Shown here in pieces: positions 8,651-56,844 of a stretch of DNA of 64,000 nucleotides. Both the position numbers and the translations under genes were made by a program. The notes beneath the pieces were generated by a model. It was not told the DNA's origin, did not search any database, and saw only the letters and a list, made by a program, of their open reading frames with translations. The DNA comes from Odontesthes bonariensis. Taxonomy: Eukaryota; Chordata; Actinopteri; Atheriniformes; Atherinopsidae. Within the stretch, counting starts at the first letter, position 1. The number at the start of each line of letters is the position of its first letter. The stretch lies in contig NC_134510.1 of the NCBI RefSeq assembly GCF_027942865.1, positions 28,003,163 to 28,067,162 on the forward strand. Reading direction: 5' to 3'.

Positions 8651-8654
8651 TTAT

Positions 8655-11045: not shown

Positions 11046-11053
11046 TATCATTA

Positions 11054-15857: not shown

Positions 15858-16238
15858 CCTTTCGGTCCTGACAAGTCTTATCACTTGTCAGAAATAATCA
15901 GTACTTTATGTACAATTACCACTGGTGTAACACTTTAACATTCAACATCAGCAGCTCTGAATAAAACACATTCTTAATAAAGGCTAAAAGATTGTGTCAA
16001 TTTACAAGAACTGAGTGTAAAGAAGAAGGCCACACAATTTTTGCTTTTCAAACTTTTTATTTAAATTTTTTTATATGCAACCAACCACGAGGACCCATGA
16101 TAAAATATACTAGAAACTGGTTAAATGTACAAGCAAAAGATAAAGATTTATAATAAAAAATAATCAGGCTCAGAATTAGATGGATTGCTCATAATTAAGA
16201 GATGTAATTATTTCAAATATTGCTTTTTTGCACTAAAC

Positions 16239-17110
16239 CAGTGGTTCCCAAACTTTTTTGGCCTGAGTACCCCCTGAGCCTTCTTGTCACACCACGAGTA
16301 CCCCCTCACACATACAACGCGTGCGATGATTCTCCAAAAGTAGAGCAACACAGTGGTTATTACATGGAGAAGCAGCATTTAGCTGTTATGCTGCAAACAA
16401 GTGGAACAAACTGCCAGTGGAGATTAAACTTTCACCAAATGTAGACATTTTTAAATCCAGGTTAAAGACATTTCTGTTCTTATGTGTCTATGCATGAAAT
16501 ATCTTTTAACTTATCTAGACTGTTAGTTGTTTTTAAATTCATTTAAATTATTTTTTTGTTTCTCTTTATATTCTTTTATGTATTTTAATGCTTCTTCCAC
16601 TCCCTGCTGCAATTCTTTTATTTTATGTAAAGCACTTTGAATTGTTTGTACATAAAATGTGCTATATAAATAAATTTGATTTCGATTTTTTTTTTGGATA
16701 CATGAACATCATTTTATTTAATATCCTTAACTTGAACATAAAATTCTCAGGCTTTCTATCTCTTTTTTTTTTAACTTCAGTTGAAAAACATTTTCTTGAA
16801 ATATAAATAATTAACCAAAATAGCATAAATACTAAATCAAAAATAATCTTCCTTTGTTATCTAACTTAAACAAGTAACATTTCTCTTTTTTTTTTTAAAT
16901 ACATGAACATAACTCATTTCTCTCTCTTTTTAAGAATACATTAACAGGCCTAACTCATGAACATTCGTCACAAAACTGGAGTCTCCTTCATAAACAGTCC
17001 TCCATAAAAGTGTGACGCCTTAATAAATAAAAAAATAAAAAAAACTCCCCGTGCGCCGCGTACCCCCTGCAGTACCTAGGGGTACGCGGACCACAGTTTG
17101 GGAGCCACTG
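16239..17110. mobile_element. Non-autonomous hAT element, 872 bp
   Basis: Ends are inverted repeats: CAGTGGTTCCCAAACTT and the complement of CAGTGGCTCCCAAACTG. The 8 bp target duplication is CACTAAAC (16231-16238) and CACTACAC (17111-17118), one mismatch. The empty site is preserved at about 39156-39165. A LINE tail is nested inside. Confidence 0.88.
16345..16690 (+). mobile_element. 5'-truncated LINE 3' end nested in the hAT element
   Basis: The plus-strand frame reads KWNKLPVEIK then FKSRLKTFLF, the C-terminal signature of fish L2/Rex1-type reverse transcriptase proteins. A T-rich 3' region follows, with GTAAAGCACTTTGAATTG and an ATAAATAAATTTGATTTCGA tail. Confidence 0.7.
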
Positions 17111-17117
17111 CACTACA

Positions 17118-17388
17118 CAATTTTCTAAAATAAGCTACAGATTTTTATCTAACATATATATACATATATATATGGTATATATGGTCCCACCACCAAATGT
17201 AAAACATATATCAGACTTAGCTGTAAGCATGTTGGTAACTCAATTTGGCAAAGAGCTCTGACTTTTTCAGTCATGCCCATTTATTTCCGACCAAAATTCT
17301 CTGCTCACTGTAGACTTTCTCTTTTGATCAAATTTAGGAAAACTTAGAAAACATCAGAGAGGAATAAATGAAGAGACTTTTGTGCACA
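17118..17388. other. 3' flank of meprin gene B
   Basis: Short AT-rich stretch with a small TATATA run near 17155-17175. It contains the candidate polyadenylation signal and otherwise nothing recognisable. Confidence 0.5.
17280..17285 (-). terminator. Candidate polyadenylation signal, meprin gene B
   Basis: AATAAA on the minus strand, about 105 nt after the gene B stop codon. The same hexamer sits at the matching place after gene C. Confidence 0.5.
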
Positions 17389-20300
17389 TCAAGCTGCCAA
17401 GAGCATCAGTACGAGCAGGACAGTGAAGACAGGAGAGGCCACCATTCCAGGAGAGAGGCCAAAAATACTACGGCAAAAAGAAATCGATAGATTAATTCAA
17501 ATAATACATGGAAAATGTCCCACTATACCCACAAGCTGTGTCTACGAGCTGTGGTGAATAGTACACCACCGTGTAACGTTGTCATGTCAGTGGTTCTGTA
17601 ATGTATCCAACCGTGTGTATATGGGTGTGTCCACTGTATGCAGCTAAGTAAAAGATTTTTTGTGGAATGCTGATGCACTCCGTTGCATTAAAAGTCATAT
17701 GTCTACATTTCTTTGCATTACTACAACAATTTTTGCAAGTGTAAAATAAGTGAGCAAAAGAGGGACATACCTGTCTTATGTTGTTGTTGGAGGTTTAACG
17801 GTGGTGGATGAGATCCTGTTAAAGTCACAAAATTATTTGACAAGAGAAAAACTGAAATCCAATTTCGGTGCAGGCCATGATGTCGCTGCCCTACTTTAAG
17901 CATTACATGTTGAGGAGTCAAATCAAGTTAGAGCTCTAAACTTTTCAGTCATATCCTACATAGTCCTATCCCATATTCTTATCAAAATTCTCTGTTCTTG
18001 GTAATCAGAATAAAAATTTAGGGAAATATGCAAATATCAGAGAGGAATTTAGCAAATTTACAGATGCGGTCCACACAAAGTCAAGAACCTTTAAAACATG
18101 CACATCAAGATGCCGAGAGCATCCATACAAGTATGATAGTGAAGACAGCAAAGGCTTCCATTTTAGGAGAAAGTAAACGACGGGACAGCAAAAGGTAAGA
18201 AATTAATTGATTTATATAATACATGAAAAAGGTCCTATTAAACCCACATGCCGTGGTCTGCAAGCAGCAGTGAGTAGTACACCACTATGTAACCTTATAA
18301 CCATTCACACCAGTGATTCTGTAATGCATTTAACCGTGTGTATATGGGTGTGTCCGCTGTACGCGGCTAAGTAAATGATTTTTTGCAGCATACTGATGTA
18401 CTCTATTGAATTCAAATTTGTAAATTCCTTTGGATTAGTATAACTACTTTAGCAAGTGTAAAATACATGAGCAAAAGAGGGACATACCTGTCATCTGTTG
18501 TTGTTGGAGGTTTAACGGTGGTGGTTGAGATCCTGTAAAAGTCACAATATTATTTGACAAAAATACTGAAATTTGAAATCCAATTTCAGAGCAGATTGCA
18601 ACATCTTTTCAAGCTTTGTTCGAAGCAGAACTGTTATTATACTACGAATACTATATTGATTTTTATTTTGTCCTACCGTGTTGAGCATGGGCTTTCATTC
18701 AGATTTGTGGGAGGCTGTATAACATTCAATGGTCTCCCTTTAGGACATGGTAGAGTACTTCCATTAACTACTGGAGTGAGATCTGTTAACAATGCAAGAA
18801 TTTTAGAAACACAAAACAGAGTAAATTTTAATTTGTTGTTGAGTGATTTAAATGTTTCAAGGATGTTTTAAGCAATCACCATTCTATGTCCCATACCCTC
18901 CCATTATGCCTCTACTGTGAAAGACACAAAATGACAATCTAGAGTCCCAGAGGTGTTGTGTTGTACAATGTAGTAACCAATGAAGTTTAGTTACTTCTTC
19001 TTTCCTACTGCATTACTGTAAGGTCAGACTGCAGTGACTGCCAAGTAAAGGCTTTTGGGTTTATGCCCCATAAATATTGATTTATACCTGGGGTATTAAC
19101 CCCGGGTACTCCACCTCGGTTAAAATTTTATTTTCCACATTATCTTTGATTGGATATATAATGACGGCGTCAAATCTAACGTGATCATGCTCACATCCTT
19201 TATCACCACACAACCAGCCGTCTGAGCACCCACTGTAATCTATGTCTCATTTAACATTGATCAAAACTGGCAGGGTCCATTTCTAATGTGAAAAGTATGT
19301 CAAGAAATTTGAAATCTGGGTGCATAATTTTAGCTGTGAAAAACATTCAACCTGCCTTGAAAGTTGAAGGTGAAAATGGCACTTCCTCCTTTTAGGAAAT
19401 CTCTGGATTTCACTGTGTTCATGTCCAGAAATTGACTATTACCCATCAGAGGTCCACCATAGACTATCTGATTATTCTCATCTAGAAATAGTTCACTTCC
19501 AGTCTCACGAGGATTGTCCCAATAAGAGTTGCCTGTTTATATAAAACATTTAGGCAATAGAGGTTAATGACAATTTGAACTATTATTGCATTTTCTTAAA
19601 AGAGTTTTCTTTGACTTTTTTGGCATTTTTATTTGTTCTTGTAAACTTACCACTGGAGGTGAGCAGAGTTTCATCAGTGGTGAAACTTCTTTGCTTTGAC
19701 ATCTGCAGTTGAATGTTCGGGTTCTGATCTAGCATTTGGAAAGTCATTTGTCTTTGAAGACAGGGAAACTCAAGCTGGTCATCATTGTCACCTGAAAGAA
19801 TTTGAACAAACACTCCAAAAGACGTCTGACGGAGTATAGTCGCTATCCGGAATGCATAGCCCTCATTGGAATACTGCCGTGGGCTGTATATTCTGGTTCC
19901 ATCAGCACTCGTGTTCAGAAGTTTCTCAAAGTCATCTATCTGCAGGGTCAGATGTGGACACTCGGTCTCAGAAAGATTGATGTCATCAATTGAGAAGCCC
20001 CCTGTAGAGCTTCCTGCTCCTTTCCGAACCTCAAACACCACCTGGAACTGCTTGATGGCATTCAGAGAAACATGCTGGAGCTTCCAGTGAGATGTTAGTG
20101 CACCTAGAGGGAGGATTTTTGAAGGACTGTTTCACTATTTGAATATTACTTGCCACTGATTATTACATCGTCACAAACATTCACAGTTCAGCTGTCTTGA
20201 GTACTCTGACATTACCAGTGATCTGTCCCATGAGGCGGAGGGTTCCACTGGAGTCTTGATCATCTTGAAACTCTCTGATCCAGATGTTCAGTACATCTGA

Positions 20301-23300
20301 CTCATTCCCACTGTTGTAATAGTAGAACTGGAGGCACTGGACATTACACCCTCTTTTGGGATTCATCATCTGCGTCTCCAGTCGGGCTGAGTCTCCTTCC
20401 TGACCTAATGCTGTGCTAACGTGCATGAAGTAACCGGTTTCTTGACCTAGAATGATGAGGTCCGAAACTATGTCATGGTCTATTCCTGGTTTTATTAGAT
20501 AGCAGTTTACATGGAACAATGATTTGACGAAGCATTATTTAATAATAACATTTTTAATTCTTCATTTAAAAAAATCTGATACCCTACCATGATCACTATT
20601 TCCACTGGGTAGGTAGGTGTGGTCAGAGCTCGGACCCCCAGACACTTGTTGTACCACTTCCCAGGTATTTCCCCTCTGTGAACAGCGGCTCATTTGGCAC
20701 ATTATTCCATTAGAAAAGCCACAGTACGTCATAAAGGCAATGGTTGAGTCTGTGAAGATAAATCCAGAAAACAAGATTTTAAATCGCATAGTATTGTTTA
20801 CACTCCTGACCATGTTGTCATTGCAAAAAGGTACAAAGGCAAACCTTAAAAACCTCCATCACACAACTCTATGAAATGCAGCATCCAGTTAATCAGGAGT
20901 ACATTCATGTCTGTTTGGCTGGTTTTAATTTTTCCCTCACTCCTCAAAAAAGTTATCCTATTCAACCAATCTGACAGTCAAACAATTGGTATGCTGGTAA
21001 CCGAAATATCTCAGCTATTAGGTAACTTAGCTCTGCAACTATGGTCTGTCTAACATATAGTCACTGAGACGCTGAGGTGTGTGTACATGCATGAGTAATT
21101 CAACTGTGAGATGACAAACAGCTGGATGGAAAATATTTCCACTCGGAAAGTTTTGTCCATGATATTTTTAGGCCCTCATACATAAGTATGTGACGCTTTG
21201 CTTTGCGGTAAGATGTATTGCATCACTTCCTGTTACCTTGCTTGTGCACGGTGGAGTTTCTTGCTCCGCTTGGACTACTGATAATTACTTTTTCTATCTA
21301 TAACTTACACATTTTTGCACAGTTAAACTCTATAGCTTACCGTTCTGTTCTAACACACTCCTACAGATCTTTAATCTTTATTCTCACTTTTTAACGGTGT
21401 GTCTGGTTCTCTAGCGTAGCATGGCTACCGGTTCTGTCCCTTCATCTCCTGCTTTCACCTGCTCGTGTGTCAGATGTTTAGTTACTCCTCTGCCTCCTTT
21501 AGCGATAATGGTACATGTAACAAATGTAGTCTTTTTGTAGTTTTGGAGGCGAGGTTATCTGAATTGGAAGCTCGGCTCTGCACTGTTGAAAATCAACCGA
21601 TAGTGAGCCAGGTCCCTTTAGCCAGTGTGGAGCCACCTAGCGTAGCTAGCTCAATTAGCCTCCCCCTAGCAGAACCTGAGCAGCCAGGATTACAACGTGG
21701 CTGGGTGACTGTCAGGAAGAGGCATAGCTCTAAAGTCAAGCCCCCCCACACCCCCCCTCCCGTCCCAGCTCAAAGTCGACCTGATGAAAAAGAAAATACA
21801 TAAATATATAATTCTTCAGATATGGCTACCCATATTGATACTCAAATCCAGACACAGCGGCAGGCCACTTCAGTTGGGCAGAACCTCCAAGTTTGCAAAA
21901 TAGGAAAGAAAACATTGCCATTTTTGGTAAAACTTCTGTGTAGACCCTCGGAGGGTGTACTTCATTTTCTCAAGCTTCAAAAAGAACAACATGTCTTTAA
22001 CCCAGAGGGATATCGAGGGAAATTTATCAGACTTCCAGCATAACAGTAAAATACGCCTAGCCAATAAAAATGTAAAAGCAACAATTTCCCTTTGATCAAA
22101 ACTTAGCACCAAAGTAGGGCTGAGGTAGCCTGGCGACGCCATCCTACGTACTTCCGCCCAAAGATTTTGGCTCCGCACATAGTCTGGCCAAATCCCCCTA
22201 CCTCGGTTCGCTCAGTGTTTTGCCAATCAGCAAACAGTTGCGAGTGGTGACGCAGAACTCACGTGCGGAGTCCATTGTAGTCCATATAATTGTAGTTCAA
22301 CCGCAGCGGAAATAAACATGGCGACGGAAGAACGCTAGAAGCTATCCATGAAGTTGTCTCAACTCTGGAGAGCATTACACAATTAAAACGAGAGCAAGAG
22401 GAATGCCTATTCAATATTGTTAGTGGCAAGGATGTCAAAGCTCTCCTTCCAACTGGCTTTGGGAAAAGTTTGATTTATCAAATGGTACCGGTATAATGAA
22501 AGCGGATGTGGGAAGCATGATTCGCGAGCTAGAGCCTCGCGAGAGTAAGCATGAACCTCGGCGCATAACCAACGTCATTTCTAAACATTATGATTGGTTA
22601 AGGGAACTCCGTTACTCCAATGAATTTAAGTTGCTGGGTAAGGTCCCGCCCTCCATGGAAACGGATTCCTCTTGGGTTTTCCCAGATTGTTTGACAGAGT
22701 CAACAGTCGGCTTTTGCCCAGGCTAGGGCTGAGGATACCAAATATAGCAACAAGAGGACAAGGTTGCAAATTTACTTTCAGAACAGAAGATGTAATTGAA
22801 AAGTATTCAGACCAAAAATTATATAATTTGGGACAAAGAAAGAACATGTGGCCAAAATTACAAGGGGAGCCTTTGCATTTATCACATATATCCAAAACAT
22901 CGGGATAAATCTGAGAGAGTCTAGATTTAGAGAAATGAATCCTATGTACAACTTTGAATTGAATCAAACTAAGACGAGCACAAGACGAGGAAGATCGAAT
23001 TCTGTCCATAGCGTCATCCCAAAGATCTTCGGTCAGCTGAATTCCCAACTCATTGTCCCATGCATCTCTAATTTTAACATTAGAATCGACCCTTAGATCT
23101 AAAATAAGACTTTAAATCTTTGAAATCATACCTTTCTCAGGTGGATTACGTGCAATCATCTTTTCCCAGGGCTGTTCAGGGGGTACAGAAGGAAAATTTG
23201 GAAAACATTTAGAGGCAAAATTCCGAATTTGTAAGTAACGAAACAAATCCGTACTAGGTAGACTGTATTTGGAAGATACATTTGCAAAGCTATTAAATAC

Positions 23301-26300
23301 TCCTGATGTATATAGGTTTTTTATTTGTTTTAAACCCCTATCATACCAAACTGAAAATGTGGGGTCAGAAAGAGACGGAAGAAACAAATGAAACAAATGT
23401 CAAGCGGCTTGAAGATGAGGCATCAAAAAACTCAAAGCGCCTTCTAAATTGAAACCAGATTTTCAGTGTGTTAAGAAGAACTTGATTCTTGGTATATAAA
23501 GAGGGTCTTACAGGTAGTGAGGAAAAAGGTGGAGTGAACGATTTAAACCAATAACTAATTTTTTGTATGTGAGCAGCCCAATAATAGGCTTGAAAATCAG
23601 GCAAAGCAAGTCCACCACTGAGTCTACATCTTTGCAATAATGTTTTGTGGACCCGAGGAGGTTTCTCTTTCCAAATAAAACCACTGATCAACCTATCCAA
23701 GGAATCAAAAAATACTTTTGACATATAAAGAGGAATAGACTGAAATAAAAAAAGGAATTTATGTAAGATGTTAATTTTGACAACATTGATCCGACCTAAA
23801 AGGGAGAGAAAGAGGAAGTTTACGGAAACTCTGGAAATCAGATGTAGTTTTTGTAACAAGAGGCAAAAAGTTAGCAGAAGCAAGGCCAGATAAAGAACGT
23901 GTCACATTTATACCTAGGTATTTAAATCCTGTGAGACTGAGTTTGAATGGAAAGTCTGAATGTTGAAGACCACAACAGTAATGTTTATAGGAAAGCATTC
24001 ACGCTTTTCCAAATTCAATTTGTAGCCTGAAAAGGAGCTGAAGTTGTTTAAGATATGCAAGGCAGTGGGGACAGAAGTAGCGGGCTTAGATACATATAAC
24101 AACAGGTCGTCCGCATATAAACACAATTTATGCTCTGTCCCATTTCGAGAAATCCCTGTAAATGAGGGGGAAACGTGCAAGGCAATAGACAAAGGCTCAA
24201 TTGCAATGGTGAAAAGCAAAGGCGACAACGGGCAGCCTTGACGTGTTCCCCGCCCAAGAGAGAAATAATCTGAGTATATATCATTAGTATGGACACTGGC
24301 TTTGGGAGATGCATAGAGGAGACGAATCCAGGAAACGAATGTATCACCGAAACCAAACTTCTTCAAAACCGCAAACAGGTAATCCCACTCAACCCTATCA
24401 AACGCTTTTTCAGCGTCAAGGGAAATAACCATTTTGGGTATATCAGAAGAATGCTTTGAATAGATTATATTGAAGAGGTTGCGCGTATTAAAGAATAACT
24501 GACGTCCCTTGACAAAGCCATTTTGCTCCTCAGATATAACCAAGGGGAGGGCTTTCTCCAAACGAATAGCAACCAACTTGGCTAGCACCTTTGCATCTGC
24601 ATTTAACAAGGACAGCGGTCTGTAAGAACCACATGAAGTCGGGTCCTTGTCCTTTTTGTGAAGTAAAACTATAGTAGCCTATGTCAATTTTGGAGGTAAA
24701 GCTAAAGATTAGTTAAACATGGCCAATAATAGTGGTGCCAATTTTACTATAAACTTTTTATAGAATTTGATGGGAAACCCATCAGGGCCAGGAGCTTTGT
24801 TAGACTGCAGCACTTTTATTGAATTATCACTTTACTATGTAAAAGTAAGCGTTCAGCTTCTTTGGTAGAACTTAAATCAATCTCTGATTGAATACCCATA
24901 CGCTCTTTAAATGATTCTGGTGAGGGACTTATGGCATATTTTTGATCAAGCTTAGCAAAGGTTGTTGCCAATTCAGTAAGCCTTGAGTTATTTTATTAGA
25001 ACGAGATGTATAGTAAATTATTTGTCCTCTGAGACAGGCCTTGAGTGTCTCCCATAACAACGAATGAGAAGTGGAGTCATTCTTATTAAACACCAGAAAC
25101 TCATCAATGGCATTAGAAATAAAGTCACAAAATTCCTCATCTGCCAATAAGAGAGAATTAAACTGCCACAAAGGTCGGCTACGTTTGTAGGAAGTTAACT
25201 GAATATCTAACAACAACGAAGCATCTGATATCATTATAGTCAAATAATCAGAGAGAACTACACATGGATTGAGAGCCTGGTCGATAAAAAAATAATCAAT
25301 TCTGGAATAAGAGTGATGCACTTCAGAAAAGAAAGAATTTTTTTTACTGGTTGGGTTTCGGGATCTCCATGGATCAATAAGACCACTCTGCCTCATGACG
25401 TCAGAGAATGCTTGGGCCATTAAAGATTTAGTTGAATTCCGGGAATTCGATCGGTCTAACTCTGGATCTATGACACAATTTAAGTCACCCCCTAAAATTA
25501 GCAAATGAGAATCCAAGAATGGGAGGCTACTCAATAACCTATTTGCAAACTCAGCATCATCAAAGTTAGGAGCGTATATATTCACTAGAAGAACCTTTTT
25601 CTGCATTAATATTCCAGCAACTATTACATATCTGCCATATTTATCAGCTATGACATCAGTGGGCGTGAATTGTACTGTTTTATTAATCAAAATGGCTACC
25701 CCTCTTCATTTAGAATTAAAACCTGAATGGAAAACTTGATTCATCCAAGAGCAACGTAACCTATCATGATCCTTGATGCGAAGATGAGTCTCTTGTAAAA
25801 AACCACCGAGGGTTTTAACCGCTTGAGGTGGGAAAAAACTTTTGATCTTTTAACAGGGTGGCCCATGCCCCTGATATTCCAGCTAATGAAACGAAGAGAG
25901 GTGCCTGGTCCTTTCACAGTGGGGTCTACAGTGGTATTAACCATTTAAGAAAATGAAAATAAGAACAACCATAAAGAGCTGAGATGGACCTCCCCCCAAC
26001 CCAAACCCAAAAGTAAACCCATAACGAAACAACACCCAAAGTCTCCATACAAACAAAACAATGGAGACACCAGAGCTATACACTAAATAAAACGTGAACT
26101 CGGAGAGAAAGCAGAGCGAACAGATACAGCAGTGTATTTAACAAAAACCGGCTAATAACCCCCCCCAACCTCCAAATCAAAATAATAATATGTGCATTAT
26201 TATGCCACTTTAAGATTATTTTTATTATATTGCAACAAGATTGAGAACCGCAAAGTCCCTATATAATGGAGAAAAAAAACTACACAACGATAAATATCAA

Positions 26301-28915
26301 TATAGATGCTCAGGAGCATTACCAATTTCTAAACTGAGCGGCATGTAAACATATCTTTAATATCTACATGATGTAGACATCAAGTCTGAATGAATATTAA
26401 GAACGCTATATTCACCCGAGCACAGGGTTCACTCAGAAATCAAAGTCTGAACATATTGCTTTGCATCCTCAGCTGCCGTAAACTTTTTTACAACTCTATT
26501 GTAAGTAATGCGCAGCTGCGCTGGGTAGAAAAGTCCATATCTGATCCCTTCGATACCACGAAGTAGCCGCTTTACCTCATTGAAGGCTGCACGAACCCGG
26601 GCAACCTTAGCAGTGTGATCCGGAAAGATTGATAGTCCCGGTAGTCCCGGCTCCGACTTTAATCCGCTGGCGCTCCCTCGCACAACGTAAAGTGTAGGAA
26701 CAAGTAGGCCTATCTCTAAAGTTTATACCTTTTTTAGGATAACTACTTTTCTCAGAATAATAGCACATTGCTATTACTGAATTAAACCTAAAATATTAAA
26801 TAAATAATCTTGTTGGCACTTACTGCAATTGTAGAGAAGATTCAGTTCCTGAACATCCCTATTACTAATTCCCAGTTTTTGACCAATCACGTCCTGGAAT
26901 TTTGGATCTTTGGTGATAATTGTTGGGCCATTTCCATTCGTGAATGCATTTTTGATGTAATGCATCACTGACCAGTAGTCGTATGGGACTCCGTGGGTGG
27001 TGCGTTCATCACTGCCGACCTTTCTGAAATTACGCTCTGTTCCTAGATGACACACGTAAAAGCTACGCATCAATTACAGAAAAGTGACAATTTATAACAA
27101 AATGATTAATTTATTGTTGATTTGTAAAAACTTTTTAAAATGTATTTATTAACTTGTTGATTTGTGTAGATAGTGTAAATCTTGACACACGAAAAAGAAA
27201 ATGTTATAATGACAGTGTGAAACCTTCTAAGACATTGTCCAACACAATTGTGACAAATTCGTCTCTGTCATATCTGGACTGTTCATGGTGGAAGCCAAGT
27301 GCATGAAGAATCTCATGTTCAACAATGTGAATAAATTCACAGCCTCTCCCGATGGAGATGACCTGTCCATTGGGTACTACTTTTCCAATAACAGAAGAAC
27401 AACTAAATGGAAAAGGGAAAAAAATATTATTGGTCATTTTCATAACATTACGCAATCAAGTCAAACAAAAGCTTAATTCATCAGAGCAGGTGCAGAACCA
27501 TCAAATGCAAAAAAATGCTTTAAAATCATCATTATGTCTTTTCAAAGCCGAACAGAAAACATTTGAAACGTGTTTCACTTTTTTCTTCAATACTTTGCCA
27601 AAATGGCAGAGGGTTGTCTTTAACAAACAAAACAATTAAATCTGGAAACCTAAAAACAAACAAACCAAAAAACATACCCGTTTAACTTTTGTACAGAAAT
27701 GTAATAGTCCTCTGAGACTCGTGGTGTGAAGTCTATGCATGACTTCAGCCTGAAACTGTCAAAGGCTTTCAGGATGATCCCTCTAGCATTCAACTCTTTC
27801 AGATTTAATGAGGAATGGTTCACAGAGACAGAGAGAGAAATGTTACCCAATTTAGAAAAATAGATGAACAAATAGTCAAAGCTTTCATTAAATCCTAGAG
27901 GATGAGATTTATATGTGGCTTTACACAATTTATCAATGTAAGAAAACAAGCTTTCGTTACGCTAACTGAACTTACTGAACTTTCACAGGGTGTAAAATCA
28001 TGTAATAATCACTGTCATCATGAAGCAATTCAACTTCAATAAATAACCTCTCAGAGGTGTTCTGCCAACAAATATACATATTCTAAGGGATCATTCAAAA
28101 CATAATATTCACCAAGGTCTTCGTCAAACTCATATGGGACTGGGAGTGTCCACAGTGGGACCTTCACGGTAGAGCCACTCCTTTGTGTGTTTACAGGCTA
28201 AGACAGTAATGGATGTCACAGAAAATATTTTAAGACATGTTCATCATAATAATGTATATTCATTATAACTTTATAATAATATACCAAACATACTAAACTC
28301 ACCATCAAAGTGTCGTCATTTAAGAAATCTGTGATGAAGAAATAGAATATTAGAGTGTTTTTATTAGTGAAGTCAATACCTAATTAAAGGGGCATTGACT
28401 TATTCAAAATTTGCTGAACAATCTCACCACTTCTATTTAATGAAATTAACAAGTTTAACATCACCCGTGTTTGCTTCTGCAATGTCCAATGCTTCACCAA
28501 TGTCTATGGAAAAAGATGAGAAGCTCCTTTATAATGTACAACTGATTCATCGAAAATCAGGTGAAAGTACATCAATAAAATGGTAGAATGATAAGCAATT
28601 CTACTTACCCACAATCTTTAGTCCATTCTGGAAAAATATGGTAGGATTTAAAAAGGAAAATACCTCACATCAATAAATAAAATGATGTTAGAAAGAAATG
28701 ATTGAGCTCTTTGTGATCAAGATTCAGTAGCATTTCAAACTTTTCTGATAGTGTGAAGTTGTAAATTTAATCAGATTAACATTGTATAGTACCCCCCCTC
28801 ATGCTTGAAAAATGGTAAGTAATGACAGTAAAACTGATAAACTTACTTGATTCTTGAGGACTGCAGATAAAACTGCCCGGCTCACCATGAAAAAAAAGAA
28901 GCATTTCATCATCAT
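17389..28915 (-). CDS. Meprin-like astacin metalloprotease, gene B (chimeric, apparently intact)
   Basis: Exons: 28915-28847, 28627-28609, 28503-28465, 28328-28303, 28197-28113, 27795-27678, 27402-27224, 27042-26824, 20749-20588, 20446-20216, 20103-19651, 19532-19356, 18782-18677, 18532-18488, 17467-17389. They sum to 2007 nt, in frame, 668 aa. Order: signal peptide, propeptide, astacin domain (zinc site [19 protein letters not shown], Met-turn SVMHY), MAM, MATH, a Thr/Pro-rich linker (exons 13-14), and a hydrophobic tail ending in LLVLMLLAA with no cytoplasmic part. Mammalian meprins have an EGF-like module before the membrane; I see none here. Exons 1-6 and the 5' part of exon 7 follow gene A almost base for base. 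The rest of exon 7 and exons 8-15 follow gene C. Intron 8 (about 6 kb) carries an L1-type LINE. Between exons 14 and 15 lie two dead exon copies that must be skipped. Confidence 0.88.
17771..17815 (-). pseudogene. Dead duplicate of the meprin B linker exon
   Basis: This 45 bp stretch is a second copy of exon 14 of gene B (18488-18532) with intact splice signals. Read in the phase used by the gene, it hits TAA after the Thr run (PPTTT then stop). Using it would truncate the protein before its hydrophobic tail. The partner terminal exon, 17389-17467, is intact. Confidence 0.75.
18105..18183 (-). pseudogene. Dead duplicate of the meprin B terminal exon
   Basis: Homologous to the terminal exon 17389-17467 and encodes a similar hydrophobic tail ([13 protein letters not shown], then stop). 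The acceptor that reads GTAG in the good copy reads GTCG here, and no other AG is nearby, so it should not be spliced. It pairs with the intact linker exon 18488-18532. Confidence 0.65.
21189..21805 (+). mobile_element. LINE 5' fragment with ORF1-like frame
   Basis: Plus-strand DNA absent from the matching place in gene C intron 8. The frame from 21465 reads [20 protein letters not shown] then [13 protein letters not shown]: a short cysteine pair, a coiled-coil-like stretch and a basic end. I recognise this as the N-terminal protein of a common fish non-LTR element. An upstream ATG at 21421 is in another frame, so it is broken. Confidence 0.5.
22126..22725 (+). mobile_element. 600 bp TIR element carrying a helicase fragment
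   Basis: Inserted in L1 ORF2. Its ends are TAGCCTGG and CCAGGCTA (perfect inverted repeat), and it is flanked by an exact 9 bp duplication GGGCTGAGG (22117-22125 and 22726-22734). Removing it restores the L1 frame ([10 protein letters not shown] continues into [10 protein letters not shown]). The superfamily is unclear; 9 bp duplications are typical of MuDR-like elements, and Merlin also makes 8-9 bp. Confidence 0.75.
22341..22496 (+). pseudogene. RecQ/DEAD-like helicase N-terminal fragment
   Basis: The 51 aa frame ends at a TAA and contains [16 protein letters not shown] followed by [12 protein letters not shown]: the Q-motif-like stretch and Walker A motif (GFGKS) of RecQ-type helicases. 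The ATG at 22319 is out of frame with it. Only the first motif survives; the rest of the helicase is absent. Confidence 0.7.
26429..26683 (-). pseudogene. L1 ORF1 protein C-terminal fragment
   Basis: The 84 aa frame includes [15 protein letters not shown] and [11 protein letters not shown], the signature of the L1 ORF1 C-terminal domain (RNA-binding chaperone). The coiled-coil part is missing because the element is 5' truncated. Confidence 0.7.
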
Positions 28916-28951
28916 GGTGTGCTTTGGTCTAACAAAACAGGTTTTTCAATC

Positions 28952-29468
28952 TGTTAGCCTGGTTCTTTTATTGGAAGCCCAAGAACAAGTTGGAGCAGTC
29001 TAGTCAAACAAAGTATTTATTGGAGGTCACAAGTTAAGTATCAGCGCTCGACATGGAGAGACAGAGTCCTCGCATGAAATCCGTCCGACCAAGTCCCGAT
29101 ATCCGGAAACATTTCATATTTATGTTCACCTTTATCTCACAGAGGTTGTACCTACACTTGACAATGCATCATTGAACATTTGATGTGAGCAGGCCATCCA
29201 CCGTCTTCGTCATGTTCTTTGGATGTGATAAGCGATGTGTGTATGTGAGTGTTGTTTCAGGCGTGCATCTACTGTACCAGACCTATCTGTCCTAATAGAG
29301 ACGCTTTATCTGACCCAGTTATTTTATCCCGCTACGTTATCTTAAAGTGTTGGACATACAATGCGTTTGTATGAGCAGAGTGTACACGTACAAACTAGGA
29401 ACATAGATTATTTAGTGAACTACAGAATATAAATACATAAAGTCTAAGAATAAAGCCGATTTATAACA
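28952..29468 (-). mobile_element. Insertion next to the meprin B start, possible solo LTR
   Basis: 517 bp present here and absent from the matching position upstream of gene A. Its ends are TGTTAG and TAACA, an inverted pair as in LTRs. No clean target duplication is visible and no protein is recognised, so the type is uncertain. Confidence 0.45.
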
Positions 29469-30945
29469 AAACATTTCAGCAAACAATATGAACAATGTTA
29501 GGGTTTTAAGATAAAAATCTCATTGGAGGAGTTTCACCTTGAAAACTTGAAAGGCCAGATGGAGTAAAAATGGTTTATGTAGCTTTAACACTACAAAACT
29601 CTACACAGCATACTGGTCAGCAACAGTCTTTAATCAGAAGCCCTCTCAGCTCCACCACAATAGGGACAGGTACAGCAGGTAAAGTAATTCCTTCCAGGGC
29701 TCTCTAGTTTTGAATGCAGGCAAGAGTGAGACGATGCATGTTTTCGATGTTTCCCTCCTCCACCACACCTGATTCAAGCGATCAGCTCGTCATCAAACTC
29801 ATTTTTGGTGAGTGAAAAAGCCCAATTTATTTTGTAATGGTCCTTTAAAAGAGTTAAAAGCTGTCCTGTGCGCTCATATCTTTATATCATGAAGCTCCAG
29901 AATGAGATCAAGTCATATTTAGGCAGAAATCACCTCTCAGTAACTATAGTATGCCTTCTATCAGTTTTTCACAGGTGAAAACTGATTGAAAACTGCAAAA
30001 CACATCCAAACCCGAGAAGCAAATACTAAAGGGCCCAGATCAGATAAAAAACAATGCAGAGTCACGAGGATCTTTATTGAAACCCCACCAATGAATCATA
30101 TTCATAATAGTCTAATTTCCAAGAACATGGCTACACAAAGTCATCAAACAAAGCAAGCACATAGAGGCACGTCTGTACGTAATTGCCATGTCTGACTTCG
30201 CTACAAAATGCTCTTCTTTTGGCCACAGTTGTAATAATTACGCAAAACAAATGTTGAACTTTAGAGGAGACACACCTTTGCTATAATTACATTATAATGC
30301 AGTTGTGTGTATCTGCATATTATGGCCGTTTAATGCAGAGAAAAGCAGACGGTTTTGCGCTACCGCTCATACGGGCTGGTATGAGGAACACTGGTAAGAA
30401 ACTGGAAGGGACTGATGAGGGGGACACGGTAAATACCTGTGCACATTCTGCAAATAGGTGGAGTTGTTATGTGACAATGTGAGCGGACAGCAGCTGGTGT
30501 CTTTCAGCCTTCAGGATGAAGTGGAGACGATAAACTCAGAAAGGCCCCTTAAGCCTGTCAGAAAGCTTCCATACTTGGAAGATGAGCTGTAGACCAGACA
30601 CGATGTTAGATTTTTAGTTTTGCTTTTTTTGTGTGCGTGTATGTGTGTCTTGGTAAAAAAACATGATAGTCATTATTTTTTACCCTTTTTTTACCCTTAT
30701 GAATTTGTTGCTACTGTCTGAGTTGCATGGGTCCTTGGGTAGCTTCAGGCTGCTCACTGACGTCATCAAAGGTAAGTGTGTTTCCCTGCTCCCATGTGTT
30801 CGGTTCATTTTCATCTGACGTCAGTGATTGAGGGTAACATATTTTTGGGTATATTTTATCCAGGGAAGGATCTTTTGCCTTCACTGGACAAGGCTCACAT
30901 GTCTCGGGAATGGGTGGAGCAAAGAACAAGTTCCCAGCTTCATTA
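29469..30945. other. Duplicated spacer without a recognisable gene (copy 2)
   Basis: Second copy of 7146-8650 with small indels. The 61-codon frame seen there recurs at 30297-30482. No domain recognised. Confidence 0.4.
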
Positions 30946-30949
30946 TAAG

Positions 30950-31360
30950 GGACCGAGCAGTGAAACTGCAAGGACCCTATTGTATCTGTACTATTTCTTA
31001 TTATTCCGTCCGTCTTCCGTCCGTCTTCCGTCCGTCTTCCGTCTTATTCTATGTAAAAGGTGTTCGAAAACTCTTGAAATTTTGCAAGCACCACCTGCCA
31101 GTCGACGACATGAAAGAATCTAAACTTTATATTTTTGGGAGTCGATTATTGACTCTGTAGCGCCCCCTACGATGCTTAAAAGTGGTACCTCCATTGGGCT
31201 TAGTTTCACGTGGGGCGACAAAATTCGGTACACTCATTCATGATGCCCAGACACACAAAAAAGTCTCATGCTGCCATGGTCTCACATCCACAGGAAGGTG
31301 GCCATTTTGGAAGGAAAGTGCGTTTTCGTGCCCATTTCGCCCGATTCCACGCCTTGCATA
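30950..31360 (+). repeat. Unclassified interspersed repeat, truncated copy
   Basis: Same start phrase as 8655 (GGGACCGAGCAGTGAAACTG). Only the first part remains before the LTR at 31361; about 150 bp of the family resumes after 38175. Confidence 0.55.
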
Positions 31361-31761
31361 TGTAACAGGGGCTATTTAGGTAGGCCGGTAGCAGGCAGGA
31401 TCCGTCCTTTCTCTTCCTCTGCCGGGTCATTGGGAACTCAGCAGGGGTGGAAAGTAACGAATTACATTTACTCACGTTACTGTAATTGAGTAGTTTTTAT
31501 GAGTAATTTGTAATTTTCTGAGTAGTTTTTGAAATGTGTAATTTTTACTTTTACTCGAGTACATTTTGACCCAAGTACTTTTACTTCGCTACATTTGAAA
31601 CCCCTCACGTTACTGAGTAAAACAAATATTGATGGTGAAAAATTAAATGCGGGCGGAAATTTAAACAGCTGTCCCGGCCGGAACTGAAAGTCAATTGCGT
31701 GGCCTTGCCTTGCGCGCGCCCTTTTTCATCTGGTGTGGTGGATCTAGTTGCGCTTTGGAAG

Positions 31762-34700
31762 ATGGCTGTTGCTAACGTAGACGTCGTGGAGACTTTGGAG
31801 GAGGAAAGGTCCGAAGAAGACAATGAGGTTACACATTCTGGAGGAGACGAAAGCCAGAAAAACCCGTGGCCATATTTAGAGAATTTTTTCGTTTTCAAGC
31901 GCATGAAAGGCAACACTCACTGTGATTATGCAGTGCAAGATGTGCCTGCCAGCCAAAACGGAGCTTTCGGCTTTCAGAACATCGACATCAAACCTACGAA
32001 AGCATGTGGTGGTAAGTTAGCGCATGTGTTTTTCTCTCTTACATCCCAAACGGTTTATTTATTGTTTTTTTGTGCTTCCCATGTAAGCACAGTGCCTTCA
32101 TGATATTATTATTTTCCACCCTGATCAAGTGAAGCAGACGAAGGAATAGCTAGCTCGCCTCACATTTTAAAAACTTGCTTTAGTGATCAGCCTGAAATTA
32201 TAAGGATGCAGAACTTTTAGTTTTCAAATGGTCTCTTAATAAATCAGCTTGTATGTTGGGTATAAGTACGCTCTTTGGTTGTTAGCCGTTGCCTAGAAAT
32301 TCGCTTGTTTGGAGTGGATATAGCTCATCAAAAGTATGGGTGGGTTGGGAATGCAAGCGTTGCAGGTATTGATGTTTGCTAAATGTGACAATAAATTAAA
32401 TGGGGTGATGGTTTTGAATATTTGGAGTGAGGGGAAATAATAGACTACACCACATCAAGTAATTTTATTTGGCGAGAATTTGGCGAGCGATCACCTAGCT
32501 ATTCTCTTCTTTACTCGTTTCCATCAGCCCACAGAACGTTAGCTCCCTCTAGAGGAAGCTAACGTGTAGCCCTGTCACATTCAGTTTGAAGGAGTTCCAT
32601 CTTTTTACCTGAGACTGCATTTATGCAGCAATTGACCGACCCCCTTCTGAACAACTCAGCTTTGCTGTAGTTTTTTTTTTTAAAAAAAGACGGAATTGCT
32701 GTATTTAATTTAATAATTAAATTAATTTAATGCTTAGCTAACTGCAGCAATCCTACAGTAGGCCTATTACAATCTGCATTTTGTTCAAGATAACCGTGAC
32801 AGTAAAGCACTTTTTTTTTAAAAAGGATGAGATTGTTCTATCTTAAAAAATGTATTTTAAAAATAGTATTTTCTAAATATGAGTGTGCCTACGAATACAT
32901 AACTATTCTGCACCCTCTTGTATTGTGTGTTCACAGAGAAAGCATCCATCAAAGCTTGCAGTTTATAGTGCATGTTCACGGAAGTTACCACAGAAACAAG
33001 GAGGCAAAAGTCTGCAGAGCAAGTTCCCAGACAACCAGGCCAAACTTGCAGTGAGTGGTGCCATCCGTGTGTCTCAAGGGACAGTTGATCGGTTTCTCAT
33101 CAAGCTCATTTGTGAAGGTCACCATCCCTTCTCTTTGGTGGAACAGCCAGCATTTAAAGAGTTTGCTGCTGCACTCAATCCTCAGTATAAAATACTCTCC
33201 AGACCCACAGTCAAAAGCAGAATCGCTGAAGCTGCTGCTGAAATGAAGACGACGTTGATATCACATCTTAGTAACACCAATCATGTCGCTACCACCACAG
33301 ATTGTTGGTCTGCCCACCAAAAAAGCTACATAGGTGTCACATGCCATTGGATCGACGAGGAGACTTTCGAGAGAAGATCTGTCGTGTTGGCATGCAAGAG
33401 GTTAAAAGGATCACACACCTTTGATGTGCTTGCAGGTGTCCTGGATGATATCCACTGCCAATACAGAATAAGAGGAAAAGTGCTTAGAACCACCACAGAT
33501 AGTGGCTCAAATTTTGTGAAGGCCTTCTCTGTTTTTGGTGAGCAGAGCCAGTCGGAGGATGAGGATGGCGGGTCAGACTCAGACCAAGAAGGTTCAGATT
33601 CAGATGATGACGTTGAGTTTCAAGACACATTCAGAATCCTAGAGCAAGACAATGGCCTTGAGTACCAGCTCCCCAAACACCAGAGATGTGCATGCCACCT
33701 ACTCAACTTAGTTGCCACGACAGATGCTGACCTTGCTGAAAAGAAGAATGACACCTACAAGAGGCTTTCACGTGCCGCCTTTGGCAAATGCCAAGGTCTC
33801 TGGAATAAGTCAGGACGCTCGCACACTGCAGCAGAAGCTGTAGAAGACAAATGTGGTCTTCAGCTCATTCGACCCAACAAGACACGGTGGAATTCAACAT
33901 ACATGGCTGTGGAGAGAATCCTACGCATCATTAAAGAACAAGGGGAAGATGCCATCAGGCGTGTCTGCGAAGAACTGAAACTGAAAATGTGAGTGTTTTT
34001 TGTTTTTACATTTTAAAATATTTAATTAGCAAACAGTCTATAACTTTACAATTGTCATAATTCATGATGAATAAACTCAAGAGTATGATTCAAGAGTATA
34101 AAATACACAAACATATAATATAATGCAAATTCCATATGATGTAAATGCTGTTTTGTTATTTATGATTACCCTTCTATGTTACTGAAAAAAACTTAATTAT
34201 TGTTTTTTCATTTATTTATCTTGTGCAGGTTGAGTCAGGCAGAAATTGCCTTTCTGGATGAGTTCTGCTGTGTGATGAGACCAGTGGTAAGGGCCTTGAA
34301 TATTCTTCAGTCAGAGACCAACACACACCTTGGGTGGCTGCTCCCAGTGATCTCTGAATTACAGTCCAAACTGAGAAGGCATGAAGCGTCGGTCAAGATG
34401 TGCCTCCCTCTCATCTTGGCACTACAGCAAGGGGTTCAAAGGCGCTTCAGAGTCATGATGGAGGACCGAGAGCTCATCTCAGCAGCAATCCTTCTACCCA
34501 AATTTAAGACGGGCTGGACTGACAAAGCTGTAGTCATTGAAGCAGGTATGATATTTATTTTAGTCTTGTTAATTTGTTTTCTATTAGCATATACACATTT
34601 TACTTGCCACATTCATAGAAATACTAAAAATGATGTCATTTGGTGAAATTAGTTGACCATCTCCACTGTGCAGGTGTGTTTTGTTAGTGGGAGGTGGGGT

Positions 34701-35190
34701 ATTAAAGTGTAATAGTGCCAAAGTGCTCCAATATGTTATCTGATTTAGCTATCCATAGTACTCTAAGAACAAATAGCTCAGTACTTAATTTCCCTACGCC
34801 GTCTGTCATTAAACAGGACTACTGTATCTGAGGCATCACCTTGACCAGATGGCCGAGGCTGAGGTGGAGCAGGGTATGCTCAGGCAGAATTCGTCAGACG
34901 AAGAGGACTACTTCTCCACAATGAAGTCCCGCAGGTCAGAGGGTTCTGGGGAATTGGAGGGGTACCTTGCCTGTGTCTCGGAGAGCATGGACCTGCTGAA
35001 CTCCTTCCCAAACATAAAGAAGCTGTCTCTGAAACTAAACACAGGGCTTCCAGCCTCAGCTGCCTGTGAGAGGCTTTTTAGTTCAGCCGGGTTGCTCTTC
35101 ACAGCCAAGAGAGCAAGACTTACATCAAAAAACTTTGAAAATCAGCTGCTGCTGAAATTAAACAAGAGCTTTTCCGGTCTGAAGTTATAG
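31762..35190 (+). pseudogene. hAT transposase (BED finger, RNase H-like, dimerisation domain), one frameshift
   Basis: DNA transposase predicted to cut and paste the surrounding element. Exons: 31762-32011, 32937-33988, 34229-34545, 34817-35190, with GT-AG introns in matching phases. Exon 1 has an acidic start and WPYLENFFVFKRMKG, then a BED zinc finger CKMCLPAKTELSAF ... NLRKH completed by RKHPSKL in exon 2. Exon 2 carries TTDCWSAHQKSYIGVT and TTTDSGSNF (catalytic-core acids). Exon 4 ends with the hAT dimerisation motif AACERLFSSAGLLFTAKRAR. Exon 1 contains one extra base between FKRMKG and the zinc finger (near 31915), which shifts the frame. The other exons are fully open, so inactivation looks recent, or the base is an assembly error. 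Confidence 0.88.
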
Positions 35191-35204
35191 ATTAGGGCAG
35201 ATTT

Positions 35205-37250
35205 GTGGGATCCTGTGGGCACTTTATTTTGAGATATTTGAGATGTGGGATCCTGTGAGCATTTTGTTTTATTTTGGAGATATTTGAGATGTGGGATCCT
35301 GTGAGCTTTTTGTTTTATTTTGGAGATGTATGAGATGTGGGATCCTGTGGCATTTTGTTTTATTTTGGAGATATATGAGATGTGGGATCCTGTAAGCACT
35401 TTATTTTGGAAATATGTGAGATCTGGGATCCTGTAAGCATTTTCTTTTGAGATATTTGACATGTAGGATCCTGTGAGCTTTTTGTTTTATTTTGGAGATA
35501 TTTGAGATGTGGGATCCTGTAAGCACTTTATTTTGAGATATTTGATATGTGGGATCCTGTAAGCACTTTATTTTGGAAATATTTGAGATCTGGGATCCTG
35601 TAAGCACTTTATTTTGAGATATTTGACATGTAGGATCCTGTGAGCTTTTTGTTTTATTTTGGACATATTTGAGCTGTGGGATCCTGTAAGCACTTTATTT
35701 TGAGATATTTGAGATGTGGGATCCTGTAAGCACTTTATTTTGGAAATATTTGAGATCTGGGATCCTGTAAGCACTTTATTTTGAGATATTTGAGATGTGG
35801 GATCCTGTAAGCACTTTATTTTGGAAATATTTGAGATCTGGGATCCTGTAAGCACTTTATTTTGAGATATTTGAGATGTGGGATCCTGTGAGCTTTTTGT
35901 TTTATTTTGGAGATATATGAGATGTGGGATCCTGTAAGCACTTTATTTTGGAAATATGTGAGATCAGGTATCCTGTAAGCACTTTATTTTGAGATATTTG
36001 ACATGTAGGATCCTGTGAGCTTTTTGTTTTATTTTGGAGATATTTGAGATGTGGGATCCTGTGGCATTTTGTTTTATTTTGGAGATATTTGAGATGTGGG
36101 ATTCTGTAAGCACTTTATTTTGAGATATTTGAGATGTGGGATCCTGTAAGCACTTTATTTTGGAAATATTTGAGATCTGGGATCCTGTAAGCACTTTATT
36201 TTGAGATATTTGACATGTAGGATCCTGTGAGCTTTTTGTTTTATTTTGGAGATATTTGAGATGTGGGATCCTGTGGCATTTTGTTTTATTTTGGAGATAT
36301 TTGAGATGTGGGATCCTGTAAGCACTTTATTTTGAGATATTTGAGATGTGGGATCCTGTAAGCACTTTATTTTGGAAATATTTGAGATCTGGGATCCTGT
36401 AAGCACTTTATTTTGAGATATTTGACATGTAGGATCCTGTGAGCTTTTTGTTTTATTTTGGAGATATATGAGATGTGGGATCCTGTGAGCTTTTTGTTTT
36501 ATTTTGGAGATATATGAGATGTGGGATCCTGTGGCATTTTGTTTTATTTTGGAGATATATGAGATGTGGGATCCTGTGGCATTTTGTTTTATTTTGGAGA
36601 TATATGAGATGTGGGATCCTGTGGCATTTTGTTTTATTTTGGAGATATTTGAGATGTGGGATCCTGTAAGCACTTTATTTTGGAAATATTTGAGATCTGG
36701 GATCCTGTGAGCACTTTATTTTGAGATCTGGGATCCTGTGAGCATTTTATTTTATTGTGATTTTATTGTTTAGTTTGATTTGTGGTATCCTGTGGGATGT
36801 GCGCTTTAATACCCCTTCGAAATTTATTAAAACAGCTTGTACTGAATTTGATTCATGACTCATCCTTTTTTGCATTAAGAAACTGAAAGTAATTAAGTAA
36901 CTTTTACTCAAATTACATTTTAAATGAAGCAATTTTGGACATGTAGGATCCTGTGAGCTTTTTGTTTTATTTTGGAGATATATGAGATGTGGGATCCTGT
37001 GAGCTTTTTGTTTTATTTTGGAGATATATGAGATGTGGGATCCTGTGGCATTTTGTTTTATTTTGGAGATATTTGAGATGTGGGATTCTGTAAGCACTTT
37101 ATTTTGAGATATTTGAGATGTGGGATCCTGTAAGCACTTTATTTTGGAAATATTTGAGATCTGGGATCCTGTGAGCACTTTATTTTGAGATGTGGGATCC
37201 TGTGAGCTTTTTGTTTTATTTTGAGATCTGGGATCCTGTGAGCATTTTAT
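35205..37250. repeat. Minisatellite inside the hAT element
   Basis: About 45 copies of a 38-46 bp unit built on GTGGGATCCTGT followed by a T-rich stretch and GGAGATATTTGAGAT. Several unit variants alternate in blocks (AAGCACTTTATTTTGAGATA and GGCATTTTGTTTTATTTTGG types), which suggests higher-order duplication. It starts about 15 bp after the transposase stop codon. Confidence 0.93.
36727..36932 (+). repeat. Duplicated hAT subterminal segment, copy 1
   Basis: About 205 bp nearly identical to 37224-37430, including ACCCCTTCGAAATTTATT and TTCATGACTCATCC. After this copy the sequence falls back into minisatellite units instead of reaching the hAT terminus. Confidence 0.85.
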
Positions 37251-37430
37251 TTTATTGTGATTTTATTGTTTAGTTTGATTTGTGGTATCCTGTGGGATGT
37301 GCGCTTTAATACCCCTTCGAAATTTATTAAAACAGCTTGTACTGAATTTGATTCATGACTCATCCTTTTTTGCATTAAGAAACTGAAAGTAATTAAGTAA
37401 CTTTTACTCAAATTACATTTTAAATGAAGT
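37224..37430 (+). repeat. Duplicated hAT subterminal segment, copy 2
   Basis: Second copy of 36727-36932. This one continues into the true 3' inverted terminus ending at 37554. Confidence 0.85.
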
Positions 37431-38179
37431 AATTTTGTACTTTTACTCAAGTAAATTTTGAAATGGGTAATTTTACTTTTACTCTGAGTAGAATTTAGGC
37501 AAAGTAAAGATACTTTTACTTAATTACAATTTTTCAGTACTCTTTCCACCTCTGGAACTCAGCCAGTGTGAGGGGACGCCTGGCTTCTGTGCTCAGTCGC
37601 CACTGAATATACGAATCAGTTGTTGTACAGGTACTACACACGCTTGGTGATACTAATTAATCCCCGTTCATGCGCACATTTTGCGGCAGGGTAATTGTTG
37701 TTTACCGTTCTGATTTCCTCAGCGTCCCACAATTTGCAGCGCGAACGCAGGGGCACTGACTGATCACTAATATAAGGCGTGTACAGACATCCCAAGTTCC
37801 AAAAACTCATTTCAGGGAGATGACTCAGTCTCCTCCTCCTCTTCCCCCTTATCTGTGTGTAGTGTGAGACGTGTACTTGGTGCCATATTTAAGTAGCTCT
37901 GTGGATATGTGGTGTTTTGGGTCTTAAATGCATAATTCTGAAGTCTGATTGGCGGCCTGAAGAGTTACTGGGAATATTGTTGCTAGACTGTCTCAATTGC
38001 TCTGATACTATTTTTATCCTATTGTGTCCGAAATCATTGTTAATAAAAATAGTAATTTATTGATAGACGCATCTCTCTGTCATCCTGCTTATTCTGGACA
38101 CTTACCTGGAGTATAGTTGATTAGGAGGGTTGATGACCTTTACACCAACACCCTTAGACACTTTGGCCCACTACACATA

Positions 38180-39300
38180 TGATCAAACTCGTCCTACAGA
38201 TTTAATGCTAGAGGCACCTCCGCATTGGGGTTATTATGTGCTCGTATGTATACGCGGAGGGTATTGTGCGTGTGGGCAGAGCTGCGCGTGACTACGACGT
38301 CCAGCGCATCTCGGTGCTTGCTAGTCAAAAACTATTTTAATGGTACCACCATAAAAGAGTCCTGTGATGAGAAGCCACTCCCTCTACCCTGTAGAACGGG
38401 TGGAGTCTTTTTAATAATGGCTGGGGCATCGACAGCAGAGGCCAGGTAAAGTGTGAGGTGAACACCTAGGACTTCACATTGTTGACGACAAGGGGCCTGA
38501 AAAAAATGTGGTTCAGATTAGAAAAACCTCATTGCTGGAATTAAAACTGACCCTGTAATTATGTATTTATTTAAAATATTATTTTCCTGGTTTACTGGCT
38601 GCCGAGACGAACCCCCTCTACTAAACAGACAAAATGTGTTTTGACACATGAACCAGACATTCTACGGAAATATATTACGATTGGTATTTGTGCCGGATAG
38701 AAATTCATTTTGTCATCATATATGCAAATACATAGTTTTTTGTTGTGGGAGTAATTCACTTTTTCCACGAGACGGGACTTAACCTTCCGGTCCTGACAAG
38801 TCTTATCACTTGTCAGAAATAATCAGTACTTTATGTACAATTACCACTGGTGTAACATTTTAACATTCAACATCAGCAGCTCTGAATAAAACACATTCTT
38901 AATAAAGGCTAAAAGATTGTGTCAATTTACAAGAACTGAGTGTAAAGAAGAAGGCCACACCATTTTTGCTTTTCAAACTTTTTATTTAAATTTTTTCATA
39001 TGCAACCAACCACGAGGACCCATGATAAAATATACTAGAAACTGGTTAAATGTACAAGCAAAAGATAAAGATTTATAATAAAAAATAATCAGGCTCAGAA
39101 TTAGATGGATTGCTCATAATTAAGAGATGTAATTATTTCAAATATTGCTTTTTTGCACTAAACAATTTTCTAAAATAAGCTACAGATTTTAATCTAACAG
39201 ATATATATGGTATATATGGTCCCGCCACCAAATGTAAAACATATATCAGACTTAGCTGTAAGCATGTTGGTAACTCAATTTGGCAAAGAGCTCTGACTTT
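38180..39300. other. Duplicated spacer, no gene
   Basis: Matches 10885-11030, then 14519-14975, then 15855-17260 of copy 1, without the fold-back and hAT elements found there. No gene recognised. Confidence 0.55.
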
Positions 39301-39314
39301 TTCAGTCATGCCCA

Positions 39315-39320
39315 TTTATT
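39315..39320 (-). terminator. Candidate polyadenylation signal, meprin gene C
   Basis: AATAAA on the minus strand, about 105 nt after the gene C stop codon, in the position equivalent to 17280-17285. Confidence 0.5.
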
Positions 39321-39424
39321 TCCGACCAAAATTCTCTGCTCACTGTAGACTTTCTCTTTTGATCAAATTTGGGAAAACTTAGAAAACATCAGAGAGGAAT
39401 AAAGTCAAGAGACTTTTGTGCACA

Positions 39425-52843: not shown

Positions 52844-52854
52844 ATGGTAAATGG

Positions 52855-56840: not shown

Positions 56841-56844
56841 AAAA

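Follow-up and report, generated by a model that had tools for sequence, protein, structure and literature searches.

The middle gene of a tandem meprin-type array in Odontesthes bonariensis, gene B, is a hybrid of its two neighbours: its 5' part is that of gene A, its 3' part that of gene C, and the switch lies inside the exon that encodes the zinc site. We put the probability that a single duplication event produced B from A and C at roughly 0.93, a figure that excludes the mode of exchange and the function of the product. That the hybrid gene is real is clear and the mechanism is well known; the features of interest are that the join falls at the catalytic hinge of the protease and that cleft residues of B are unlike those of both parents. 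The case is unusually readable, with both parents, the duplicated spacer and the join all present.

Coordinates are positions in the window, that is, the whole stretch of 64,000 nucleotides of NC_134510.1 analysed here, which lies within a 42-Mb contig (C6) of an assembly of 945 Mb in 187 contigs. The window carries three meprin-type genes in tandem on the minus strand, with B between both parents (Table 1). For B and C, splicing gives full-length models free of internal stops; in all three models the end of exon 12 at a GC donor is a guess. The tail exons of A are probably to be found at the left end of the window or beyond it, and tail-like matches occur in the flank (L024) at 9995-9912 and 9353-9285. 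Apart from these, the 10-kb flanks hold no further copy at E 1e-5, only matches of 74, 183 and 312 bp. The Pfam search of B gives Astacin (5.7e-60), MAM (1.4e-32) and MATH_2 (6.9e-13), all in one protein, and no match to an EGF family; behind a Thr/Pro linker its C-terminal end is hydrophobic, as read from sequence alone. The possibility that B is a pseudogene is ruled out by its intact frame. No RNA genes were found with Rfam at the gathering score or with ARAGORN.

Table 1. Coordinates of the genes, the join, the duplicated unit and selected codons
Feature	Position	Strand	Remark
Parent gene A	164..6946	-	exons 1-12 in window, frame open throughout
Hybrid gene B	17389..28915	-	15 coding exons; 2007-base CDS, 668 codons + stop
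Parent gene C	39425..51028	-	15 coding exons; 667 codons + stop
Exon 7 of B	27224..27402	-	zinc site; crossover inside
Crossover interval	27261..27318	-	best split 27318-27306; alternative: 28-bp run 27289-27262, shared exactly by all three genes
A-derived 5' part of B	27262..28915	-	signal peptide, propeptide, N-terminal protease subdomain, introns included
C-derived 3' part of B	17389..27261	-	C-terminal protease subdomain, MAM, MATH, tail
First copy of ~22-kb unit	5278..27289	.	A 5' part + spacer + B 3' part; ends approximate, private insertions
Second copy of unit	27262..49135	.	B 5' part + spacer + C 3' part; ends approximate
Converted C-type tract in A	618..1227	-	exon 10, intron 10, start of exon 11
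B codon for meprin beta residue 146	27333..27335	-	Ser in A and C, Phe in B
B codon for meprin beta residue 184	27038..27040	-	Lys in A and C, Thr in B
B codon for meprin beta residue 238	26876..26878	-	Thr in A, Asn in C, Lys in B; third-base change B-private

The switch inside the zinc-site exon

The initial annotation had read B as a crossover hybrid with C at its 3' side and A at its 5' side, and site patterns, introns and a chi-square test all agree with that reading; exon 7 of B runs exactly from 27402 to 27224 on the minus strand, as annotated. First of all, sites on three-way aligned codons were classed as AB (B like A and unlike C), BC (B like C and unlike A), AC (A and C agree against B) or all different. 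Exons 1-6 (353 sites) hold 95 AB, 2 BC, 5 AC and 3 all-different sites, and exons 8-9 (381 sites) hold 7, 63, 10 and 2, respectively. Exon 7, with 179 sites, is mixed (23 AB, 18 BC, 2 AC and 1 all different), the A-like sites mostly coming first and the C-like sites mostly last. When the 208 AB and BC sites of exons 1-9 are divided at one point, the best place is between 27318 and 27306, with 117 AB and 4 BC sites on its left and 8 AB and 79 BC sites on its right. In the recombination test that had been proposed as a check, the maximum chi-square is 161.6, the top value in 2000 permutations being 19.1. Uniform similarity of B to A and C, which would have spoken against a hybrid, is not seen; there is instead one sharp switch, at homologous positions.

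Second, intron 6 of B equals A at 266 of 275 positions and C at 148 of 275, while intron 7 equals C at 174 of 181 and A at 100 of 181, the lower figure of each pair reflecting the forced alignment of unlike DNA. The introns thus repeat the signal of the exons without selection on the protein. The coding sequence at the 3' end of exon 7 (27261-27224) equals C at 38 of 38 positions and A at 24 of 38. Third, synonymous divergence (dS) is 0.046 between A and B in the 5' part and 0.054 between B and C in the 3' part (515 codons); the A-C value for exons 1-8 is about 0.64.

The patchy differences that had been noticed near the switch are indeed there: 27337 and 27327, both BC, are surrounded by AB sites, and 27290, an AB site, comes after the BC sites 27306 and 27300. 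In gene order, 27343 differs in all three genes, 27337 is C-like, 27336 A-like, 27334 different in B alone, 27333 A-like, 27329 again different in B alone and 27327 C-like; 27325, 27324, 27322 and 27318 are A-like, 27306 and 27300 C-like, and 27290 A-like. The exchange may have taken place at 27318-27306, in which case position 27290 changed in C afterwards. Alternatively, it may have taken place in the 28-bp run 27289-27262, preceded by several changes in A or by repair patches. This run, which encodes the third zinc histidine and the residues after it, is the longest exact match of A and C outside a recently converted 3' tract.

It had also been proposed that the hybrid pairs the catalytic N-terminal half of one gene with the MAM/MATH half of the other. 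The MAM and MATH domains do come from C, but the join cuts the protease domain itself: the predicted B protein is made of the signal peptide, propeptide and N-terminal protease subdomain of A, followed by the C-terminal protease subdomain, MAM, MATH and tail of C. Mapped onto human meprin beta, 27318-27261 corresponds to residues 151-170. In a structure paper on meprin beta, N- and C-terminal protease subdomains flank the cleft, the active-site helix spans Ile147-Leu158, and Phe160-Trp161 forms the hinge between the subdomains (PMC8197800). Taking these subdomains together with the residue mapping, we place the join at the hinge, and the cleft of B would owe its upper rim to A and its lower rim to C. 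The hybrid is thus that of a protease, with its join in a stretch conserved for catalysis and at the natural boundary of two protease subdomains.

Duplication and the origin of the hybrid

An unequal exchange between an A gene and a C gene, as initially suggested, is supported by the order A, C3'/A5', C, by the duplicated spacer blocks, by the like divergence of the parts and by the single switch. One such exchange inside the conserved zinc-site exon would have duplicated about 22 kb and left the hybrid between its two parents. The 28-bp run would have seeded it, the identity of A and C there probably having been kept because it encodes the active site, and crossing over is the mode that we favour. 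What speaks against a clean join is that accounting for the alternating AB and BC sites within 27337-27290 takes repair patches, a small conversion or several changes private to A; A and C today agree at 137 of the 179 positions of exon 7, which is short homology for meiotic crossing over. The same tandem duplication might have come about by replication-based template switching, either break-induced or microhomology-mediated, an alternative that concerns the mode alone and is included in the probability given above. The same limited identity at the join (28 bp perfect, 137/179 across the exon), the unlike introns of A and C and the patchy sites beside the join would suit such a route. On the other hand, homology-directed exchange would put the switch where it is, at homologous positions and in the exon with the longest A-C run, the converted tract apart. 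With so little A/C homology at the join, template switching with the same outcome is indistinguishable from crossing over, and we regard it as possible but rather doubtful.

When 4.7-27.4 kb is aligned to 26.7-49.3 kb, a collinear chain runs along the whole unit. The claim that the two spacers are copies stands for the collinear blocks and fails between them, where each spacer has stretches that are partnerless in the other. Blocks 7135-9059, 9964-10193, 10549-11015, 14519-14976 and 15854-16238 of the A-B spacer pair with blocks within 29441-39163. One further block, 17109-17873 against 39154-39906 (95.3%), was left out of the chain because a duplication in the tail of B misaligns it. Divergence was taken in 27 alignment windows of 300 aligned bases, 23 of which were compared; two of the dropped ones lie outside or straddle the unit at its A-B edge and two are misaligned by the tail duplication. 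K2P averages 0.026 for the 5' part, 0.036 for the spacer and 0.034 for the 3' part, values that do not differ significantly (Kruskal p 0.53). Across the 23 compared windows K2P ranges from 0.010 to 0.056. Divergence is not perfectly even, one stretch of 385 bp being at 99.0% (K2P 0.0105), and later conversion could be the source of this unevenness.

These values bear on two further explanations. B could once have been a full third gene that was later converted on two separate occasions, in its 5' half by A and in its 3' half by C; conversion does happen in this array, as the C-like tract at 618-1227 of gene A attests. The idea would need two long tracts of the same age that reach into the spacers and meet at one point, yet the 5' part, the spacer and the 3' part have diverged alike, and we consider it highly improbable. 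Alternatively, haplotypes or paralogues could have been wrongly joined in the assembly into an apparent hybrid; tandem paralogues are a common place for such errors, and B is read here from the assembly. However, the duplicated blocks differ by the K2P range just given and carry private insertions, the contig is 42 Mb long, and B-private changes occur in exons on both sides of the join, so that an artefact is barely credible.

One unequal exchange between A and C remains the best explanation. As to a fourth paralogue as parent of B, the assembly was searched with the 513-residue C protein, and none was seen among the 53 matches listed, with 56 candidates scored. Those of the listed matches that reach the MAM/MATH part are only A, B and C on contig C6 and one gene on contig C19, the others being confined to the protease part.

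Gene A has its own record of exchange. A and C are identical over 281 bp at 618-898 and at 97.3% over 972-1227, and positions 676-875 are identical in all three genes (200 of 200 in each pair). The A-C dS, about 0.64 in exons 1-8, is within the tract 0.022 in exon 10 and 0 at the start of exon 11. The tract in A is without the 1.7-kb insertion present in intron 10 of C (41523-43232). Since A is nearly identical to C in the tract and distant from it on either side, A is also a mosaic, by later conversion from the C type; with both A and B mosaics, whole-protein gene trees of such meprin arrays can mislead.

The substrate cleft and the ends of gene B

The zinc histidines 152, 156 and 162, Glu153, Met209 and Tyr211 are kept in A, B and C, as are the cysteines at 103, 124 and 255 among those checked. 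With its catalytic residues kept, B is probably an active zinc protease, and it would work as a membrane-tethered or secreted enzyme of the meprin type. According to the structure paper, Arg146, Arg184 and Arg238 form the basic cluster behind the preference of meprin beta for acidic substrates (PMC8197800). At all three of these positions B is, by parsimony, unlike both parents, and so it is at 212, where the base change is unpolarised. Columns in which B is unique number 11 of 172: in five of them all three genes differ (143, 145, 186, 212 and 238) and in six A equals C (146, 148, 184, 193, 196 and 254). The chance of these columns including all three arginine positions is 0.0002, in a test that is partly post hoc, 184 and 238 having been noticed in the alignment before the naming of the arginines was read. 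By comparison, a single one of the three sites (238) is found among the 23 columns unique to A, and the same one among the 30 unique to C. Cleft positions may simply be more variable; taken as suggestive and partly post hoc, the pattern hints that the substrate preference of the hybrid has moved.

Replacement changes point the same way. B-private changes in exons 1-8 comprise 12 replacement and 3 silent ones, compared with 6 and 9 in exons 9-12 (Fisher p 0.06), and the branches of A (5' part) and C (exons 7-8) together have 6 and 7 against the 12 and 3 of B (p 0.11), all these counts omitting sites at which all three genes differ. Faster replacement in the protease part of B is thus suggested but not significant. 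Relaxed constraint on B would fit these counts too, dN/dS being 0.77 between A and B in the 5' part and 0.38 between B and C in the 3' part. Tentatively, and against our own leaning, one might join these observations with the site of the join: the exchange would have fallen at the hinge because the active-site DNA was the longest identity left between the diverged paralogues, making a working protease with a cleft from two parents that selection later retuned (146, 184, 238 and 212). If true, conserved catalytic motifs would be natural seams for domain shuffling in proteases. In any event, the set of A, B and C offers a direct test of whether a subdomain swap alters substrate choice.

As for its ends, B would use A-type 5' control and a C-type tail. 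The sequences directly above the start codons, 28950-29468 in B and 6964-7142 in A, are partnerless in each other; A-type control of B is therefore less well supported, and the proximal 5' control of the two genes may not be the same. At the other end, B has a second copy of the linker and tail exons (17383-17873 and 18099-18594) and C has one. In the second linker copy, 17815-17771, the ends resemble splice sites but there is a TAA stop, and the first tail copy has lost its acceptor AG. Depending on whether the second linker is used or skipped, the tail would be truncated or tethered-looking.

Relatives, known systems and neighbouring sequence

In the protease domain, the gene on C19 is 81.5% identical to human meprin beta, and A, B and C are 51.7-57.0% identical to it and 49.7-50.9% identical to meprin alpha, the margin of beta over alpha being small for A and B. 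Over 513 residues, C scores 511.8 bits to beta and 345.9 bits to alpha. Marin describes meprin-F as divergent fish derivatives of MEP1B, some of them in tandem (PMC4545420). The divergence of A, B and C from the C19 gene, their being nearer to beta than to alpha, their tandem layout and the lack of an EGF match in B would fit meprin-F. In Poecilia formosa that paper gives seven meprin-F genes, at least four of them in tandem, like the array here; unlike what we find for B, a hybrid or crossover among the genes is not reported in the parts of it consulted (PMC4545420). Among the literature matches listed, which cover few subscription journals, no title or opening of an abstract names a hybrid or crossover meprin gene.

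In the haemoglobin anti-Lepore duplication the hybrid is flanked by both parents, as it is for B, but those are human globin alleles. The CYP11B1/CYP11B2 chimera of glucocorticoid-remediable aldosteronism likewise arises by unequal crossing over of similar genes; it joins the promoter and 5' end of one gene to the coding 3' part of the other, with crossovers in regions of high similarity (PMC8750845). That chimera is a human disease allele of similar genes (PMC8750845), whereas the parents here stand at a dS of about 0.64 in exons 1-8, and the duplicated blocks of B have had time to diverge by about 3%. A close known system is that of the chimeric spiggin genes of sticklebacks, which encode a glue protein derived from MUC19 and include many chimeras across populations, B being a protease (PMC4989455).

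Intron 8 of B has an insertion at 21189-26695 with LINE-like pieces on the minus strand, including a reverse transcriptase match (23917-24678) and a weak endonuclease-like match (24932-25705) below the curated cut-off. Intron 8 of C contains other, unmatched DNA and, on the plus strand, a match to a TCR cysteine-rich domain (45648-46247). The B-C spacer has a minisatellite at 35204-37437, whose units measure about 41-46 bp and which shows higher-order periods, and no array with a score of at least 150 is found in the A-B spacer. Plus-strand open frames of the B-C spacer at 32883-33989 and 34197-34643 look DNA transposase-like by eye, the first having no Pfam match. In the A-B spacer, 13675-15857 has inverted and direct repeat arms that are about 93-97% alike and have no match of at least 150 bp in the B-C spacer; perhaps this is a mobile element that landed after the duplication. 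To the right of gene C, reverse transcriptase matches lie on the plus strand at 52851-53681 (just below the curated cut-off) and 56796-57362. Elsewhere in the assembly, contig C20 has four tandem astacin-like matches at 11.67-11.72 Mb, with open frames of 331-335 residues and one TAA each, which are possibly single-exon genes of the hatching-enzyme type.
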